Position numbers and translations under genes: made by a program. This document shows positions 1-32,099 of a stretch of 33,211 nucleotides of DNA, piece after piece (position 1 is the stretch's first letter; each line of letters opens with the position of its first letter). The stretch spans positions 1 to 33,211 of IMG/VR virus record IMGVR_UViG_3300008450_000225, one strand, 5' to 3'. Source of the stretch: a virus. Below the pieces are notes generated by a model. It made no database searches. It was given only the letters and a program-made list of their open reading frames with translations, and was not told where the DNA came from.

Positions 1-365
1 AAAATACAGTTTTTATAATGTTGCCAATTTACACGGTAAGATGGGTCAACCACTCCACCGTTTAACTTTTTTATTAAGTCATTTAACGCATTAATAGTAT
101 AAAGCGTATTAGTTTCTTTTTTTCTATGTACCAGGATTGTATTTAAAGGAATTGCCTCTACGTTACCTTGTTCTACATTATAAGTAACTACATATTCGTC
201 TGTGCTTTTAACATATAACACAAACATTTTGTTATACATTATTGAATAGGCCTTAGTAAGTTCACTAACCAATTCATCTAAACCCTCTAAATTTGTAAAT
301 GTACAAAACAGTTTATTATTCACGTCTCTTGTATTTATGGAATCAAAATCGTATCCCATATACAT
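1..365 (-). CDS. Partial unknown phage protein (N-terminal 121 residues)
   Basis: An open frame starts at ATG 365-363 and runs without a stop off the left edge, so the C-terminus is missing. It begins MYMGYDFDSINTRDVNNKLF; a second ATG at 359-357 (MGYDFDS) could be the true start. The visible protein is mixed alpha/beta in composition, with no signal peptide or membrane segment, and contains the stretch HRKKETNTLYTINALNDLI. I do not recognise a family with a known function. It begins four bases after the stop codon of the DNA polymerase-like gene, so the two are very probably co-transcribed. Like that gene it has more CG dinucleotides than the baseplate genes upstream. The function is open; a replication-associated role would be a guess from position only. 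Confidence 0.75.
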   Translation of the reverse strand, partial: MYMGYDFDSINTRDVNNKLFCTFTNLEGLDELVSELTKAYSIMYNKMFVLYVKSTDEYVVTYNVEQGNVEAIPLNTILVHRKKETNTLYTINALNDLIKKLNGGVVDPSYRVNWQHYKNCI

Positions 366-369
366 ATGT

Positions 370-1659
370 TTATTTTTTTGTAAAATCGTATGTGTCTCCA
401 TAACTTGTTTTTGTTAATAACTTATATTTTTCAAATATTTTTTTAATTTCAATTTCAATATCTTCCTCACCTTGACCTAATTCAAATAAAAACGAATCGT
501 ATGTATATAATACAATTTTTGTTTTCTTACCTTTCAACAATTTATGTATATCTACTAGAATGTAGGAATTAACAGCCGATTCCACATTCTGTAACATATA
601 ATTAAATAGTTTCTGTGGATTCATATTTTCAAGCGATTGACTTTTAAAACAATAACCTGAAATTGGTACAATAACTTCACCCGAGTTATTAAACTCCTCC
701 CAATTTATTGCCACAAAGTTTTTTACTTTCTGAAAAAATTCCAGATGCTCATATTCTTTAAATACTCCACCATAGAGTTGTTTGAACGTAATTTCTTTGG
801 CCTCTTGGTAACTCGTACCATAGAGTTGCGCGAATTCCTCGTGGACATCTCTATTGCTAAAAACATGGGCAACCATACGAGCAATAAGGTTAGGATGGTA
901 TGCACTAATATCGAACTCCACAAACCCATGACTCGATATAAAGCTCCCCCTTGCGCCATTTTCTTTATTTAATGCGGCAAAATTAATGCCATTAAAAGAG
1001 TTACTTGGTCTACGTGTTGTTGTAGCCAAATTATAGCATGTGTAGATCCTATCGCCTTGGATTGAATAATTCTCGTGATTAGGTTCATAGTGTTTATCAA
1101 ATTCATCTTTATTAATTTTAATTCCGTTCTTTTCAATTCCAAAAAACGCTAGTACTACCTTATTGTTGTAAAAATCAAACCAAGTGGGTAGTTCTTGAGG
1201 TATAACACTACGAACGTGTTCATAAATATGTTGGCACCTTTCATAGTGTTTGGCAACAGGTATTAGTTTGTTAACCTTTTCGTAAGTTGGATATTTTTGG
1301 TAAAAGTGATTGAATACTTTAGGTGCCTCTTGTATATACGGAGGAATAAGTTGGGACAGGTCATGCAATGCTTTAATTGGAAAATAATACAATGCCTGTT
1401 TTTTGTCTCGTACCCACACGCGCTCTATATTTTGTAGTATAGCGCCTATAACCGTCTTATCAAGCGAGAATGTTTCACTATGGTCAACACATAACATATA
1501 ACCTTTTGTGTCATTAAACGGTCTAATGTACACTAGAGACACATCGTTTAAAGCAGGGTGTATGTTATCGTGGTGTGGAATAATTTCTACAAACGCCTCT
1601 AATATAGGTTTTTGATATAAGTATTCTAGATCTTTTTCCGTTTCAATTAGCCAAAACAT
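370..1659 (-). CDS. Short, divergent family-A DNA polymerase-like protein
   Basis: A 429-residue protein with the polymerase motifs of DNA polymerase I in order. T215-R-R-P-S-N is a variant of the TGRLSS signature, followed by an 'NGINFAAL' segment where PNLQNIP normally lies. Motif A is FDISAYHPN with D250. Motif B (O-helix) is K288-E-I-T-F292-K-Q-L-Y296-G, matching the K758/F762/Y766 spacing of E. coli Pol I, although the preceding conserved Arg (R754) is not there. N353-x3-Q357 resembles the Q-helix. Motif C is Y387-D388-S389 in place of HDE. Both catalytic aspartates are kept, but the Glu of motif C is not. The first ~200 residues show no clear 3'-5' exonuclease DxE motif and are too short for a full exonuclease domain, so this is about half the size of a normal Pol I. 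It lies after the tail genes and before an unknown gene with which it is nearly contiguous. T4 itself uses a family-B polymerase. Activity is unproven. Confidence 0.8.
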   Translation of the reverse strand: MFWLIETEKDLEYLYQKPILEAFVEIIPHHDNIHPALNDVSLVYIRPFNDTKGYMLCVDHSETFSLDKTVIGAILQNIERVWVRDKKQALYYFPIKALHDLSQLIPPYIQEAPKVFNHFYQKYPTYEKVNKLIPVAKHYERCQHIYEHVRSVIPQELPTWFDFYNNKVVLAFFGIEKNGIKINKDEFDKHYEPNHENYSIQGDRIYTCYNLATTTRRPSNSFNGINFAALNKENGARGSFISSHGFVEFDISAYHPNLIARMVAHVFSNRDVHEEFAQLYGTSYQEAKEITFKQLYGGVFKEYEHLEFFQKVKNFVAINWEEFNNSGEVIVPISGYCFKSQSLENMNPQKLFNYMLQNVESAVNSYILVDIHKLLKGKKTKIVLYTYDSFLFELGQGEEDIEIEIKKIFEKYKLLTKTSYGDTYDFTKK

Positions 1660-13853: not shown

Positions 13854-13864
13854 TTATAAATATT
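13854..13864 (-). promoter_or_regulatory. AATATTTATAA element fused to a stop codon
   Basis: In gene sense TAATATTTATAATAAATT-ATG: the TAA stop of the LamG gene provides the first bases of the element, and the start codon of the 175-aa gene follows six bases after it. If the element is a -10-like sequence, the mRNA would be leaderless or nearly so. Confidence 0.55.
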
Positions 13865-14579
13865 ATAAACCAAATCTTCCTTTGGTTGCATTGTAGTTTT
13901 GAAGTACTTCTGAGGGTGATAGGGCTCTATTATAAAATAAGTAGTTAAATAAGGTTCCTGCAAGAGGGTTTTGATAATTATTTACTCCTGTTGCACTAAA
14001 TTGTCGGCAAGCTAAAAATAATAGATTATGATCATTAAATGTTACTGTAGATGTTATTGGTTGGGTTCCATCTGCTACTCCATTAAGATAGTAAGTTACT
14101 AAATTACTACTTTGATTACATACCACAGTACAATGACTTGTTTTTTGATAAATTACAGTATTATTTCTAGAAGTATTTCCACCAAATAAATTATTACATT
14201 CCATCCCAAAATAACCCCCACTTATTGTGTGTATAACAAAATTATTACTATTATAATCAGTACTATCTGATGCGTTTTTCATAACAAATATACCTCTATG
14301 ATTTAACAATGTATTTATGTTAATCCAAAAAGAAACTGTAAAGTTTGAATATGTTTCAAATGAACCTGTAATATAACCATAGTCATCAGTTCCATCAAAT
14401 ACAAGAGAACCTAAAGACCCTGTGTTAAAAGTAGGTCCGTTATTTAAAACGCCAATATAATTATTTCCGGATTTATCAAACCAAGTAGTTCCTGTACCTG
14501 AGTAGGATTTAGTATTACCGGCATCTAGTTCTAAAACTAGTCCCGATTTTACTGTATTTGGTCCTTCTACTACACTCAT
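13863..14579 (-). CDS. LamG-like (concanavalin-fold) virion adhesin, copy 3
   Basis: A 238-residue single-domain protein of the laminin-G/concanavalin jelly-roll type. It opens with 'LVLELDAGNTKSYSGTGTTW' and has 'SLVFDGTDDYGYITGSFETY', 'FTVSFWINI' and the closing 'NYLFYNRALSPSEVLQNYNA'. The C-terminus is TKGRFGL. Such domains bind glycans, so a role in recognising host surface polysaccharide is likely. It overlaps the preceding LamG gene by four bases (ATGA), implying translational coupling, and shares its layout with the two LamG genes upstream. There is no signal peptide, as expected for a virion protein. The fold is confident; ligand and virion location are inferred. Confidence 0.8.
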   Translation of the reverse strand: MSVVEGPNTVKSGLVLELDAGNTKSYSGTGTTWFDKSGNNYIGVLNNGPTFNTGSLGSLVFDGTDDYGYITGSFETYSNFTVSFWININTLLNHRGIFVMKNASDSTDYNSNNFVIHTISGGYFGMECNNLFGGNTSRNNTVIYQKTSHCTVVCNQSSNLVTYYLNGVADGTQPITSTVTFNDHNLLFLACRQFSATGVNNYQNPLAGTLFNYLFYNRALSPSEVLQNYNATKGRFGL

Positions 14580-15271
14580 AATCCAAATCTCCCCCTAGTT
14601 GCATTATAATTTTGAAGAATTTCTTCATTAGATAATGATCTATTATATACTAAAACATTTGCTAGATCCATTCCAGGACTTCTAAAGTTAAGACCTCCTA
14701 TATAAAGAGGTAGGGAATTTGTATTTCTATCTGTCAAATTTGCTGTTACTGAATCTTGTACTCCATTTTTAAAAACCATCATTACTCCATTTCTAGATTG
14801 AAATATATAATTAGCCCATACACCTATTGGGGGTGTTAGAGGATCACTAGTATTTAATTCTATTTGGCCTTGACCAGAAGCACCCCAAGTACAGTGAAAT
14901 CTACTAGTTTGGTCTGAATAAAACCATATACCGGGTCTTCGTTCTGCATTACCATCTCCTTTAACAAATAGTTGAGTCCAAGTACCATTATCATCAAAAT
15001 TTACTTTTATCCAAAGTGAATAACACCAATTTAGATAATTATAGTTGAGATCAGCACTATTAGGAATAGTAACAAGTTGGTTACTAGAATTTAATGTAAA
15101 ATTAATACTACCCGAAGAATAGGTAAGACCAGATCCGATAGTACCATTATTGCCTCTATTAGTTAGATCTTTCCATCCTGTACCTGTTCCTGGATATGAT
15201 TTTGTATTACCGGCATCTAATGCTAGTACTAATCCATCTGTTACTATTTTAGGTGAATATTGTGTTGCCAT
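14576..15271 (-). CDS. LamG-like virion adhesin, copy 2
   Basis: A 231-residue paralogue of its neighbours, with 'LVLALDAGNTKSYPGTGTGW' at the N-terminus, 'LNWCYSLWIKVNFDDN' in the core and 'LANVLVYNRSLSNEEILQNY' before the C-terminal TRGRFGL. It is a single concanavalin-like jelly roll, probably a carbohydrate-binding virion protein. Its start (ATG 15271-15269) overlaps by one base the stop of a 14-codon remnant peptide (TAATG), so translation may be coupled to that vestige. Its end overlaps the next LamG gene by four bases. The N- and C-terminal parts match the paralogues better than the centre does, as expected where receptor-binding surfaces diverge. Confidence 0.8.
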   Translation of the reverse strand: MATQYSPKIVTDGLVLALDAGNTKSYPGTGTGWKDLTNRGNNGTIGSGLTYSSGSINFTLNSSNQLVTIPNSADLNYNYLNWCYSLWIKVNFDDNGTWTQLFVKGDGNAERRPGIWFYSDQTSRFHCTWGASGQGQIELNTSDPLTPPIGVWANYIFQSRNGVMMVFKNGVQDSVTANLTDRNTNSLPLYIGGLNFRSPGMDLANVLVYNRSLSNEEILQNYNATRGRFGL

Positions 15272-15315
15272 TATAAACCGTATCTTCTTTTTGTTGTGTC
15301 TTGTGATTGTCCCAT
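15271..15315 (-). pseudogene. Vestigial LamG gene end encoding a 14-residue peptide
   Basis: A mini-ORF, MGQSQDTTKRRYGL, starts 12 bases after an AT-rich element and ends with TAATG into the next LamG gene. Its last nine codons align with the end of the LamG gene at 13863 (ATKGRFGL): 23 of 28 bases are identical by eye. Read as the two ends of a LamG gene left after internal deletion, possibly kept as a coupling leader. Confidence 0.55.
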
Positions 15316-15327
15316 ATTATTTATGTA

Positions 15328-15338
15328 ATATAAATATT
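15328..15338 (-). promoter_or_regulatory. AATATTTATAT element upstream of LamG copy 2
   Basis: In gene sense AATATTTATAT ends 12 bases before the ATG of the 14-codon remnant and about 56 bases before LamG copy 2. The element has survived with the remnant, suggesting it still drives the downstream LamG pair. Confidence 0.5.
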
Positions 15339-15344
15339 TTTTAT

Positions 15345-16061
15345 TTAAAATCCAAATCTTGGTTTGGTTGCATTATAGTTTTGTAGTACTTCTGTTGATG
15401 TGATAGCACGATTATAAACTACAAAAGTACCTACTCTACCTCCTCCATAACCTGATGTTCCCATATTTGTACTGTCTATAGCAAATAGAGCATAATGATA
15501 TTGAAATCCATTATTGTAAGGAGCTGCTCTACTAAAATTTGTTGTTCCTATAGATGATCCATTTATGTAAGCAGTTAATGTTGTTCCATCGTAAGAAAAT
15601 CCAACGTTATACCAATTATTAAAAGATAAATTAGAAGATACTACTCTATTACCCAAACCACCATGCCAAGTTGAAAAACTAAAAGCCCCTGCACTATTAA
15701 TTTCAATATTTGAATCATGCCAACTTGCATTGATTGCTGTTTGTCCTAATTCTACCACTATTTGACCTGCGGATGTTGGGTAAACCCAAATAAAATGAGA
15801 AACACTTGTTGATGAAAAATATGGATTTAAACTATTTTGATTAGCTAGTATATAATCATTTGTTCCATCACATATAATAGTACCACCATTACTTCCTGTA
15901 AAAGTAGGTCCGTTAGTTAACGTACCATTATTACTACCTCTAGATAAATCTCTCCATACAGTTCCAGTACCTGGATATGATGTTTTATCATTGGCATCTA
16001 ACCAAAGTACTAGTCCATCTTTAACAATATCTTGTTGACTAAAACCAGTTGCTGTAAACAT
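15345..16061 (-). CDS. LamG-like virion adhesin, copy 1
   Basis: A 238-residue concanavalin-fold protein: 'LVLWLDANDKTSYPGTGTVW' at the N-terminus, 'IICDGTNDYILANQNS' and 'SHFIWVYPTS' in the core, 'YNVGFSYDGTTLTAYINGSS', and 'TFVVYNRAITSTEVLQNYNA' with C-terminal TKPRFGF. It is the first of three tandem LamG genes and overlaps the stop of the 1276-residue fibre gene by one base (TAATG), so it is probably translated with that fibre. Inferred role: a receptor-binding or glycan-binding protein carried on the tail fibre or another virion site. There are no catalytic residues that would indicate an enzyme. Confidence 0.8.
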   Translation of the reverse strand: MFTATGFSQQDIVKDGLVLWLDANDKTSYPGTGTVWRDLSRGSNNGTLTNGPTFTGSNGGTIICDGTNDYILANQNSLNPYFSSTSVSHFIWVYPTSAGQIVVELGQTAINASWHDSNIEINSAGAFSFSTWHGGLGNRVVSSNLSFNNWYNVGFSYDGTTLTAYINGSSIGTTNFSRAAPYNNGFQYHYALFAIDSTNMGTSGYGGGRVGTFVVYNRAITSTEVLQNYNATKPRFGF

Positions 16062-28831: not shown

Positions 28832-30337
28832 TTAATAAATGCCATAGTATGAGTTTATGTTTGATTCTATCCCTGTACGATTATTTTCTTGTGCTGAATT
28901 GTAGTATATAATTTCTTGTAATCTACAATTTGAAAAATTACTTGAAGCATACAATCCAATAGAATTAATATTTTGATTTAAAGAAAAAGCAATAAATATA
29001 CTTGTAATTTGATTTCCATTTTTATAAATTCTTTGAGTTCCTCCACTTTCTCTTAATCCTGTTAGCAATAGATGCGATGTACTTGTATCTGTTGTTGTAC
29101 TGGCTTGATAGCCTGATGTATTGGCTTGTAGATAATAGTTATTATCTGACCATAATGCAAAATTATATTGATTTCCTGCTAATCCCATTAAAAGACTACC
29201 TGCTGAAGTTCTTTGTCCAACAAACGAATTATAATTGGATGCTTCGTAAGTAAATTGTGTAATTGATAATGAATCATTTGAACCGTCAAAATCTATTCGA
29301 GGTTTACTATTTATAGTTAATACATTTCCACTGCTAACAATTTGCGGTTGATTTGCTGCCGTTGTTTGTGTTGCATTTCTTGCATTTCCTGATTGGTCGT
29401 ACCAAGTTGTAACAAAACCATTTCCTACTCCACAAAATAATAATAAAGCTCCAGTATTTAAATCACCATTTCCATCAAACCCAATATCTTGTTCGGTATT
29501 ATCAGAGGATCTTCTTACTCTAATAGCATTACCTGTATAAGAGGTTTGTAATAAACGTAATGAATATGCACCTGTTGCTCCTGGATAGGAATCTAACAAC
29601 AAAGGAGCAGAAGGAGTATATAGAGCTAATGGTAATCCAAATCTAGAACACATAGAATTATAATTTTTTCTAATGTTTGAAGAATTTATATAAGGATTAT
29701 AAACTTTAAAGTTATACAAATTACCAACACTACCAGCATTAGAGGCAGTAGTATTATTCAGTAATAATAAACTAGCTGAAGTAGATAAAGATCCTAAACC
29801 ATTTGCTGAACCAGATGCTATATAATTAGAATTTAAATACACAGAAGTAATTATATTATTAGGTATATAAGTTACATCCAATACATAATTTGATCCTGTA
29901 ACAATAGAGCCTACAGCAGTAGTGGCCGAAGAGGAAATAGTAGAGGATACATTATAAAAAGCAGTCAATCTTCCACTACCACCAGAACCAGTTATAAAAG
30001 CTCCAAAGTTAGGAAATGATCCTGAATTTTTAGAATATAGCCAATGTCTTCCATTAATTTGGGATGGTAAAAAAGCCATCTCTACGGTAAAAGAACCTTG
30101 TCCAAAATCTGCCGCCGAGCCAGAAAAACTAACCGCGGAGGCAGAGTTAGAGGAAACTAAAGCACCACGGTTAGTGGTTGCAAACGAGATGGAACTAGAG
30201 ATAGTTCCTGTAAAGCCGTTACCGGTAACATCCGTCCAACTAGTGCCCGAACCAGGGTAAGATAAAGGATCAGCAGCATCAACTGCTAGCTTTAAACCTG
30301 TGGTTGTTATTTGGGAAAATGCATATTGTACGGCCAT
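28832..30337 (-). CDS. Two-domain adhesin: LamG plus ArabFuran-like, copy B
   Basis: A 501-residue protein with two concanavalin-like domains. Domain 1 (about 1-240): 'LKLAVDAADPLSYPGSGTSW', 'GRHWLYSKNSGSFPNFGAFI', ending at 'RKNYNSMCSRFGLPLALYTP', the same ending as the small LamG proteins. Domain 2 (about 245-501): 'SYTGNAIRVRRSSDNTEQDI', 'GFVTTWYDQSGNARNATQTT', ending NINSYYGIY. It is a paralogue of the 502-aa protein at 30591. Probably a host-glycan-binding virion protein. It is preceded by the 79-aa gene (10-base gap) and followed in frame by a relic C-terminus. No signal peptide. Fold confident; ligand and catalysis unknown. Confidence 0.75.
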   Translation of the reverse strand: MAVQYAFSQITTTGLKLAVDAADPLSYPGSGTSWTDVTGNGFTGTISSSISFATTNRGALVSSNSASAVSFSGSAADFGQGSFTVEMAFLPSQINGRHWLYSKNSGSFPNFGAFITGSGGSGRLTAFYNVSSTISSSATTAVGSIVTGSNYVLDVTYIPNNIITSVYLNSNYIASGSANGLGSLSTSASLLLLNNTTASNAGSVGNLYNFKVYNPYINSSNIRKNYNSMCSRFGLPLALYTPSAPLLLDSYPGATGAYSLRLLQTSYTGNAIRVRRSSDNTEQDIGFDGNGDLNTGALLLFCGVGNGFVTTWYDQSGNARNATQTTAANQPQIVSSGNVLTINSKPRIDFDGSNDSLSITQFTYEASNYNSFVGQRTSAGSLLMGLAGNQYNFALWSDNNYYLQANTSGYQASTTTDTSTSHLLLTGLRESGGTQRIYKNGNQITSIFIAFSLNQNINSIGLYASSNFSNCRLQEIIYYNSAQENNRTGIESNINSYYGIY

Positions 30338-30590: not shown

Positions 30591-32099
30591 TTAATATATT
30601 GTGTAGTATGAGTTAATAAGGGTGTTAATATCACTTCGGTTTGTTAGTTGACTAAAACTGTATATTATCAATTCTTGAGTGTATGCATTTGAAAAAGTAT
30701 TACCGCTACCTATAGAATTCCACGGTGTTTGAAAAGAACTTCCAGCATAAGATGATGATGGGAGTTGTGTATTATTTACATAAAATAAAAAACCTGAAGG
30801 GCCATATCCCGCGGCAAAAGCTGATATTAAATCTTGGTTAGTAGTATTATAAGGTCCATATTCTGCTATTCCTGATGCTCGATAATTATAATTATCATTG
30901 GCTAAATGACCTATAAAGAAAGGAAAAGAAGATCCTGTATTTGATAATATAATACCGTTTGAACTATTTGTTTTTCTTCTTCCTAACATAAAAATACTAT
31001 CTTGAGAAGTAGGAGTTATACTAGAAAAATTATAAAAATCATTTGTACCATCAAAATCTAAAGCAGGTTTATTATTATCTAATATAATAGATCCTGAATT
31101 TACAATTAATGGTTGAGAGATTGCTGTTCCTTGTGTAGCGTTTCTTCCATTACCTGATTGATCATACCATGTAGTAACGAATCCACTACCTCCTCCAACA
31201 AAAGTTAATAAACTAGTTGTATCTAAATTGCTACCTACAAATCCTATATCTTGTTCAGTATTATCAGAAGATCTTCGTACTCTAATAGCAGACCCACCAT
31301 AATCACCATTTAATAATCTTACAGAAAAAGCAGCGGATGCTCCAGGGTATATATTTAACAATCCATCACTACCTATAAATAAAAATGGTTTTGTAGGTAA
31401 GCTTAATCTAGTACTTAAAGAATTATAATTTTGTCTAATAGCGCCTGGTACTAATCTAGGAGTGTATAACTTAGCGTTAAATATTTCTGAAGGAATACCA
31501 ACAGATGAACCTGAGTTTCTATTAGAAATAAATAATGAAGAAGTTGTTGTTAAAGAACCAGTTCCATTAGGAGTAATACTAGCTGATAGTTCTGAGTTTA
31601 GATAGATGGTACTTATGTTTCCAAGAGAAGGTGCAAAGTTTATATCAACCAAATAATTAGATCCTGTTACAATAGAACCTGTAGGGGTTGACATAGAACA
31701 AGAAACAGTAGAGGAGGCATTAAAAAAAGCAGTTATTCTACCACTACCACTAGAGCCTGTAATGAAGGCACCCCAAGAGGGAAATGAGCCAGAATTTTTT
31801 GCCACTAGCCAATGTTGTCCATTGATTTGATTTGGTTGAAAAGCCAATTCCACAGTAAAAGAATCCGTACCAAAATTACCTGAGGAGGTAGGGAAAATAA
31901 TTACTGAAGATGAATTATTTACCACTAATGTGCCTTTAAAATCGGAGGCATAAGTGATTGATCCTGATAAAGAACCTGTTATACCGGTGACAATATCGGT
32001 CCAACTAGTTCCTGAACCAGGATAAGATAGTGGGTCGGCGGCATCTACCAACAACGATAAACCAGTGGTTACTGTACGAGGACCATTATTAAAAGACAT
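30591..32099 (-). CDS. Two-domain adhesin: LamG plus ArabFuran-like, copy A
   Basis: A 502-residue paralogue of copy B: 'LSLLVDAADPLSYPGSGTSW' and 'GQHWLVAKNSGSFPSWGAFI' in the first LamG domain, 'RQNYNSLSTRLSLPTKPFLF' at its end, then 'GGSAIRVRRSSDNTEQDIGF', 'GFVTTWYDQSGNGRNATQGT' and C-terminal INSYYTIY. Conserved blocks alternate with variable ones, typical of receptor-binding paralogues under diversifying selection. Its ATG lies six bases after an AATATTTATAA element that overlaps the stop of the 72-aa gene. It is probably exposed on the virion and glycan-binding. No signal peptide or membrane segment. Confidence 0.75.
   Translation of the reverse strand: MSFNNGPRTVTTGLSLLVDAADPLSYPGSGTSWTDIVTGITGSLSGSITYASDFKGTLVVNNSSSVIIFPTSSGNFGTDSFTVELAFQPNQINGQHWLVAKNSGSFPSWGAFITGSSGSGRITAFFNASSTVSCSMSTPTGSIVTGSNYLVDINFAPSLGNISTIYLNSELSASITPNGTGSLTTTSSLFISNRNSGSSVGIPSEIFNAKLYTPRLVPGAIRQNYNSLSTRLSLPTKPFLFIGSDGLLNIYPGASAAFSVRLLNGDYGGSAIRVRRSSDNTEQDIGFVGSNLDTTSLLTFVGGGSGFVTTWYDQSGNGRNATQGTAISQPLIVNSGSIILDNNKPALDFDGTNDFYNFSSITPTSQDSIFMLGRRKTNSSNGIILSNTGSSFPFFIGHLANDNYNYRASGIAEYGPYNTTNQDLISAFAAGYGPSGFLFYVNNTQLPSSSYAGSSFQTPWNSIGSGNTFSNAYTQELIIYSFSQLTNRSDINTLINSYYTIY

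Follow-up and report, generated by a model that had tools for sequence, protein, structure and literature searches.

The divPolA1 gene and its family

The window, by which we mean the whole 33,211-base virus record that was analysed, carries every long open reading frame on its minus strand. The frame at 370-1659 (-), for which a sequence-only reading of this DNA had given no strand, encodes a divergent family-A DNA polymerase of 429 amino acids, recognised by profile, homology, AlphaFold and Foldseek. We firmly identify the product as divPolA1, a family described in 2024 by Yutin et al. (Virol J 21:200; PMC11348598), and the window gene is a new member of it. In that description, divPolA1 occurs in 14 phages, Flavobacterium phage immuto and its relatives, of 155-190 kb, which also encode a regular family-A, -B or -C polymerase. 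It is reported there to have a truncated thumb, an inactivated exonuclease in which all three catalytic aspartates are replaced, and conserved replication genes downstream, and the authors consider retained polymerase activity and a part in replication most likely (PMC11348598). Everything that we tested agrees with this description. Within the literature searched, the term divPolA1 occurred only in that paper and its preprint.

The type member of the family is immuto gp001 (YP_010114413.1), to which the window protein is 35.8% identical over 93% of the query (tblastn, E=2e-78). Taken alone, the window protein found only noise in a single-sequence phmmer search of the PDB and had no match to Pfam DNA_pol_A (PF00476), for which 9 of 69 relatives gave weak matches; immuto gp001 itself lies above the cut-off of that profile (E=4.6e-11, 42.7 bits against 34.3). 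Because single-sequence searches were weak, homologues were gathered, and the resulting family profile was needed to reach the PDB, where it aligned with Klenow (E=9e-4), placing D250 on D705, K288 on K758 and D388 on D882; hhalign of the family against E. coli Pol I gave E=7.5e-4. These matches, together with the fold described below and the length of 429 residues, bear out the earlier claim of a half-sized family-A polymerase, and D250, K288/F292/Y296 and Y387-D388-S389 all stand where that reading had put them. The gene is under strong purifying selection, with dN/dS of 0.11-0.18 between the window protein and its close relatives and a median of about 0.10 over 55 close pairs.

A first scan of viral contigs yielded 68 loci encoding relatives and a second one at least 566 in IMG/VR, so that the family is much larger than first listed (14 phages) and is widespread in aquatic viromes. 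Annotated phages contributed six records only, namely four immuto records, an unannotated 484-kb phage and Microcystis phage Mel-JY01. The immuto gene is annotated as "DNA polymerase family A". In Mel-JY01, the protein annotated as "DNA polymerase I" (WWT39339.1; L074:25057-26097) comprises only a 5'-3' exonuclease (FEN) domain, and the actual family-A polymerase, WWT39333.1, is annotated as a hypothetical protein.

Bacterial genomes gave only five matches, all in Flavobacteriia contigs or metagenome-assembled genomes; they support a Bacteroidota host, although they may be mis-binned phage contigs. Recognised reading frames of the window encode a tail sheath, a tail tube, a baseplate and other virion proteins, and most of its frames are homologous to, and collinear in blocks with, those of immuto, and partly with those of Mel-JY01. 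The immuto annotation includes gp20- and gp23-like proteins. The "T4-like" context proposed from the sequence, that of a myophage, is thus fair in a broad sense, and we take the source to be a large T4-related, Bacteroidota-type aquatic phage. Among the virion genes, three consecutive related proteins of 238, 231 and 238 aa (window 13863-16061; phrog_24074/phrog_8510) look like tandem duplicates, with two further relatives at 28832-30337 and 30591-32099.

Fold, exonuclease relic and nucleotide pocket

An AlphaFold model built from 69 aligned proteins of the window and contigs had a mean pLDDT of 92.2 and a pTM of 0.90. Foldseek returned 216 PDB matches at E<=0.001, and the 50 listed were all family-A DNA polymerases; the best of them, apicoplast polymerase (apPol), Klenow and KlenTaq, covered nearly the whole chain at E down to 5e-17. 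The predicted architecture is therefore that of a Klenow-like enzyme along its entire length, with a shrunken exonuclease relic and a reduced thumb. In the model, a small alpha/beta domain occupies residues 1-110 (1330-1659 (-), boundary approximate), and model secondary structure, Foldseek and column statistics together point to a 3'-5' exonuclease-like domain stripped of its catalytic carboxylates. Where the sequence-only reading had seen no recognisable exonuclease, we would thus place a shrunken and catalytically dead one. The conserved acidic residues of the N-terminal region depart from the exonuclease pattern, since only E6, E25, E62 and D85 are at least 95% conserved within residues 1-134. 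The first-strand FDTE appears as F23-V24-E25-I26 in the window protein, in a putative register to exo motifs I-III. The relic has conserved residues of its own, with H60, K86 and K87 present in 119/119 sequences and E25, H34 and E62 nearly invariant, and this suggests that it retains a binding role. Residues 111-200 (1060-1329 (-), boundary approximate) make up a reduced thumb and linker, as judged from the model and from hhalign to E. coli Pol I; residues 114-190 are modelled as a few helices, and about 84 residues of the Pol I thumb lack a counterpart, falling between residues 190 and 191 in the hhalign alignment.

Conservation was counted over 119 sequences, whose identity to the window protein in the sampled alignment is 28-86%, and the residues of E. 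coli Pol I, T7 DNA polymerase and T7 RNA polymerase used for comparison were taken from their genomes. Eleven positions are invariant in all 119: R217, D250, H255, K288, F292, Y296, K350, Q357, E360, Y387 and D388. R217 (1009-1011 (-)) occupies the Arg668 position of Pol I, in TxRPSN for TGRLSS, and D250 (910-912 (-)) is the metal-binding aspartate of motif A, D705 in Pol I. The O-helix residues K288, F292 and Y296 (772-798 (-)) match K758, F762 and Y766, and motif C, Y387-D388-S389 (493-501 (-)), takes the place of H881-D882-E883, its third residue being Ser in 111 sequences and Ala in 8. The sequence-only reading had listed, as observations that would speak against its proposal, a full-length replicase elsewhere together with loss of the two aspartates in homologues; such a replicase does occur in relatives, as set out below, and both aspartates are kept throughout the 119 sequences.

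Three changes set the pocket apart: His255 for Glu710, Tyr284 for Arg754 and Ser/Ala389 for Glu883. That reading had reported the second and third, as a Pol I HDE altered to YDS and a missing R754 equivalent, and both hold; the R754 position is filled by Y284 (808-810 (-)), four residues ahead of K288 and Tyr in 116/119. It stressed motif C and did not mention the invariant histidine at the Glu710 (steric gate) position (H255, 895-897 (-); 119/119), which amounts to a natural experiment at a site reported to be strongly conserved among PolA enzymes. Through His255 and Tyr284, the enzyme probably reads the incoming nucleotide, both its sugar and its triphosphate, in a different way. With R754 missing from 116/119 sequences and E710 from every one, the enzyme might bind dNTPs very weakly or use a different chemistry. 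Activity is nevertheless plausible by analogy with the PolA of Thermus phage Tt72, whose natural serine at the E883 position gives the serine of motif C a working precedent: its S616A mutant retains 76% of activity and E389A (the E710 equivalent) 35%, and mutation of either aspartate reduces activity to 4% (PMC9324360). The YDS of divPolA1 also resembles the HDS of T7 RNA polymerase, in which the E883 position is likewise serine. A T7-like RNA polymerase was rejected as an identity; hhalign gave no alignment of the catalytic core (E=0.12, in the wrong region), and the E710 position holds His, not Gly.

Neighbouring genes and coexisting polymerases

Wherever more than 6 kb of downstream sequence is available, which holds for 52 loci, the gene order is divPolA1, a gp002-like gene, a gp32-type single-stranded DNA-binding protein (SSB), RecA/UvsX, a FEN nuclease and a DnaB helicase (DnaB_C, E=1.7e-17), usually with ribonucleotide reductase next. 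The window shows the gp002-like gene alone of these downstream genes, as a 5' part at 3-365 (-) that starts 4 nt after the divPolA1 stop and is cut by the contig end; the whole protein is about 140 aa, with homologues for example at L070:1346-1801 in immuto and L050:11301-11720 in the contig that carries the closest full-length divPolA1 homologue. In most loci only a few nucleotides separate its start from the end of divPolA1. Among 50,697 phage records it occurs in the same six as divPolA1 and in no others, and divPolA1 lies upstream in 67 of 67 IMG/VR gp002 loci with enough upstream DNA. It is also the more conserved of the two, at about 59% identity to immuto against 36% for divPolA1. Pfam, PHROGs and Foldseek gave it no usable identity; its model had no PDB match at E<=0.001, with top Foldseek hits that were not OB folds, and model quality was uneven (pLDDT 85 in the best, 49-75 in the others). 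Gene linkage suggests that the gp002-like protein binds the polymerase and is likely a partner subunit or a processivity or regulatory factor, which offers a concrete and testable pair. We found no discussion of this strict pairing in the accessible parts of Yutin et al. (PMC11348598).

As the window spans 33 kb only, the question of a second polymerase was read from related records. A complete PolB or PolA was present in 15 of the 19 searched, the remaining four being partial contigs of 57-73 kb. DNA_pol_B scored over cut-off in 14 of the 19, with 8 positives among the initial 9 records and 6 among the 10 added to them. One of the 14 is the contig (G012, the same as L050) that encodes the full-length homologue nearest to the window protein, at 86% identity, and its PolB lies in an 889-aa frame. 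Immuto lacks PolB; its separate regular polymerase is a 777-aa family-A enzyme whose exonuclease domain scores as intact. divPolA1 is thus very probably not the replicase, and in these relatives it coexists with a complete replicative polymerase. Among nine long records, no stand-alone DNA_pol_A_exo1 protein scored over cut-off; the sole match above it belonged to the full-length PolA of immuto, and a single sub-threshold match lay in another record (G003). A DnaG-type primase related to that of immuto was found in seven of these nine, the two without it being partial contigs.

Some PolB genes themselves look unusual. The family-B polymerase appears split or shortened in G005 (58817-60168), G006 (86123-86770) and G008 (46559-47233), with frames of 556-573 aa; in G005 the shortened frame is followed by one of 324 aa, and such cases are possibly a split gene 43. 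In the 484-kb phage, PolB matches fall in two frames, one of 1022 and one of 625 aa, separated by about 4 kb (LR756508.1, 260623-266900), which suggests a large insert or a split gene.

A candidate role among known polymerases

We think it reasonably probable, though well short of certain, that divPolA1 serves the phage replisome or recombination as an active accessory polymerase without proofreading, with the gp002-like protein as its likely partner. Its fold and invariant residues point to catalytic activity, which would proceed by two-metal catalysis with D250 and D388. The enzyme would extend primers on a template without proofreading and with low processivity, working with the products of neighbouring phage genes (SSB, UvsX/RecA, FEN nuclease and DnaB helicase), and the gp002-like protein would act as a subunit or as a processivity or regulatory factor. 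Bulk synthesis would fall to PolB, or to PolA or PolC in other members of the family. Synteny is consistent with gap-filling, for example after the FEN nuclease removes Okazaki primers, so that two genes would share work of the kind that Pol I does; alternatively, divPolA1 may extend recombination intermediates. Because the neighbouring genes serve gap-filling, recombination-linked synthesis and priming alike, synteny cannot separate the three. A search for DNA ligase as a hint of Okazaki maturation gave nothing over cut-off, but it covered PF01653 alone, a profile that leaves aside ATP-dependent ligases, and is therefore uninformative. Of the roles floated by the sequence-only reading, that of a repair enzyme, taken widely so as to include an accessory or replisome polymerase, fits best. 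That a second family-A polymerase heads the replication block, whichever family replicates, suggests a constant division of labour outside the T4 model.

Of the other explanations, we give most attention to a primase or primase-polymerase, formed by divPolA1 and the adjacent small protein by analogy with the SCCmec CcPol-MP pairs and TV-Pol, although we consider it unlikely. A family-A palm with a partial exonuclease would here start chains, helped by a small ssDNA-binding partner; priming is the role of CcPol-MP (PMC10061031) and has been proposed for TV-Pol (PMC2579912). Those systems also have a shortened family-A polymerase linked to a helicase; in CcPol-MP the truncation is of the same kind, with a partial exonuclease and a short thumb, and a small protein gene lies directly 3' of the polymerase, as in divPolA1 loci (PMC10061031). 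The replaced Glu710 sugar gate and the serine shared with T7 RNA polymerase would suit the use of rNTPs, and a helicase is encoded in the same block. However, that helicase is of DnaB type and accompanied by DnaG, whereas the CcPol and TV-Pol elements carry D5-type helicases; the partners of CcPol are OB folds, and the gp002-like protein is not recognisably one; and TV-Pol keeps an RxxxK motif that divPolA1 lacks (Y284xxxK288 in 116/119). The usual presence of a DnaG-type primase disfavours the role further, and the primase-like activity raised by the sequence-only reading is not needed. A still bolder and somewhat less likely proposal is that divPolA1 and the gp002-like protein form a two-subunit polymerase whose sugar gate, rebuilt on the invariant histidine, accepts ribonucleotides or starts chains; if true, these phages would possess, in addition to DnaG and PolB, a family-A enzyme that makes primers or fills gaps with mixed RNA/DNA.

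A translesion or damage-tolerance polymerase, its pocket altered for damaged or modified bases so as to relieve stalled forks, appears to us a little more doubtful again. The lack of proofreading, the altered dNTP pocket and the RecA and SSB neighbours would suit it, as would the 7-deazaguanine DNA modification pathway of immuto, the one genome in which this was looked at (QueC, QueD, QueE, QueF, FolE and DpdA; L070, 18607-37015). On the other hand, the invariant F292 and Y296 and the highly conserved O-helix are unlike an opened pocket, and the unchanging position within a core replication block points to a standing role and not to one reserved for emergencies. The sequence-only reading had also offered a minimal replicase, or else a split polymerase of which this protein would be one part, with the exonuclease elsewhere. 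We rejected the first because PolB or PolA coexists in relatives, and the second for that reason and because no stand-alone family-A exonuclease was found over cut-off in the nine long records; the thumb, moreover, is not of normal size. That divPolA1 heads the SSB-RecA-FEN-DnaB block, and that the regular polymerase has the looser gene context according to Yutin et al. (PMC11348598), speak for a main replicase served by the exonuclease of another protein, which we nonetheless regard as very improbable. Least credible of all is a catalytically dead scaffold or degenerating relic, since, although the exonuclease site and the counterparts of E710, R754 and E883 are lost, the metal aspartates, K288, F292, Y296, R217 and Q357 are invariant; low dN/dS weighs against it as well, and together with the invariant motifs rules out a pseudogene.

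An accessory polymerase with a small partner, our preferred reading, can be set against several known systems, and what we add to the published family is the invariant sugar-gate histidine, the tyrosine for R754, the obligate small neighbour and a wider spread. Immuto gp001 is alike in its palm catalytic residues, truncated thumb and dead exonuclease and, judging by the relatives of the window gene, in its separate regular polymerase and downstream genes. Nothing sets the two apart as families; the clade of the window differs in its pairing with PolB instead of PolA, and in having Ser rather than Ala after the motif C aspartate. Klenow, KlenTaq and apPol share the predicted whole-chain fold, and divPolA1 has equivalents of D705, K758, F762, Y766, D882 and Q849, but they are enzymes of about 600 aa, whereas divPolA1 has 429, with no exonuclease carboxylates, a reduced thumb, and H255, Y284, Y387 and S389 for E710, R754, H881 and E883. 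Tt72 PolA is an active phage family-A enzyme with the same serine, but it is a protein of 703 aa with strong proofreading and keeps Glu at the 710 position (PMC9324360). Finally, the divPolA2 of barbaviruses, as described in PMC11348598, is likewise a family-A polymerase that lacks an exonuclease and comes second to a regular PolB. Its N-terminal globular domain is unique to it and its gene neighbourhood varies, whereas divPolA1 has an exonuclease relic and an invariant neighbourhood.
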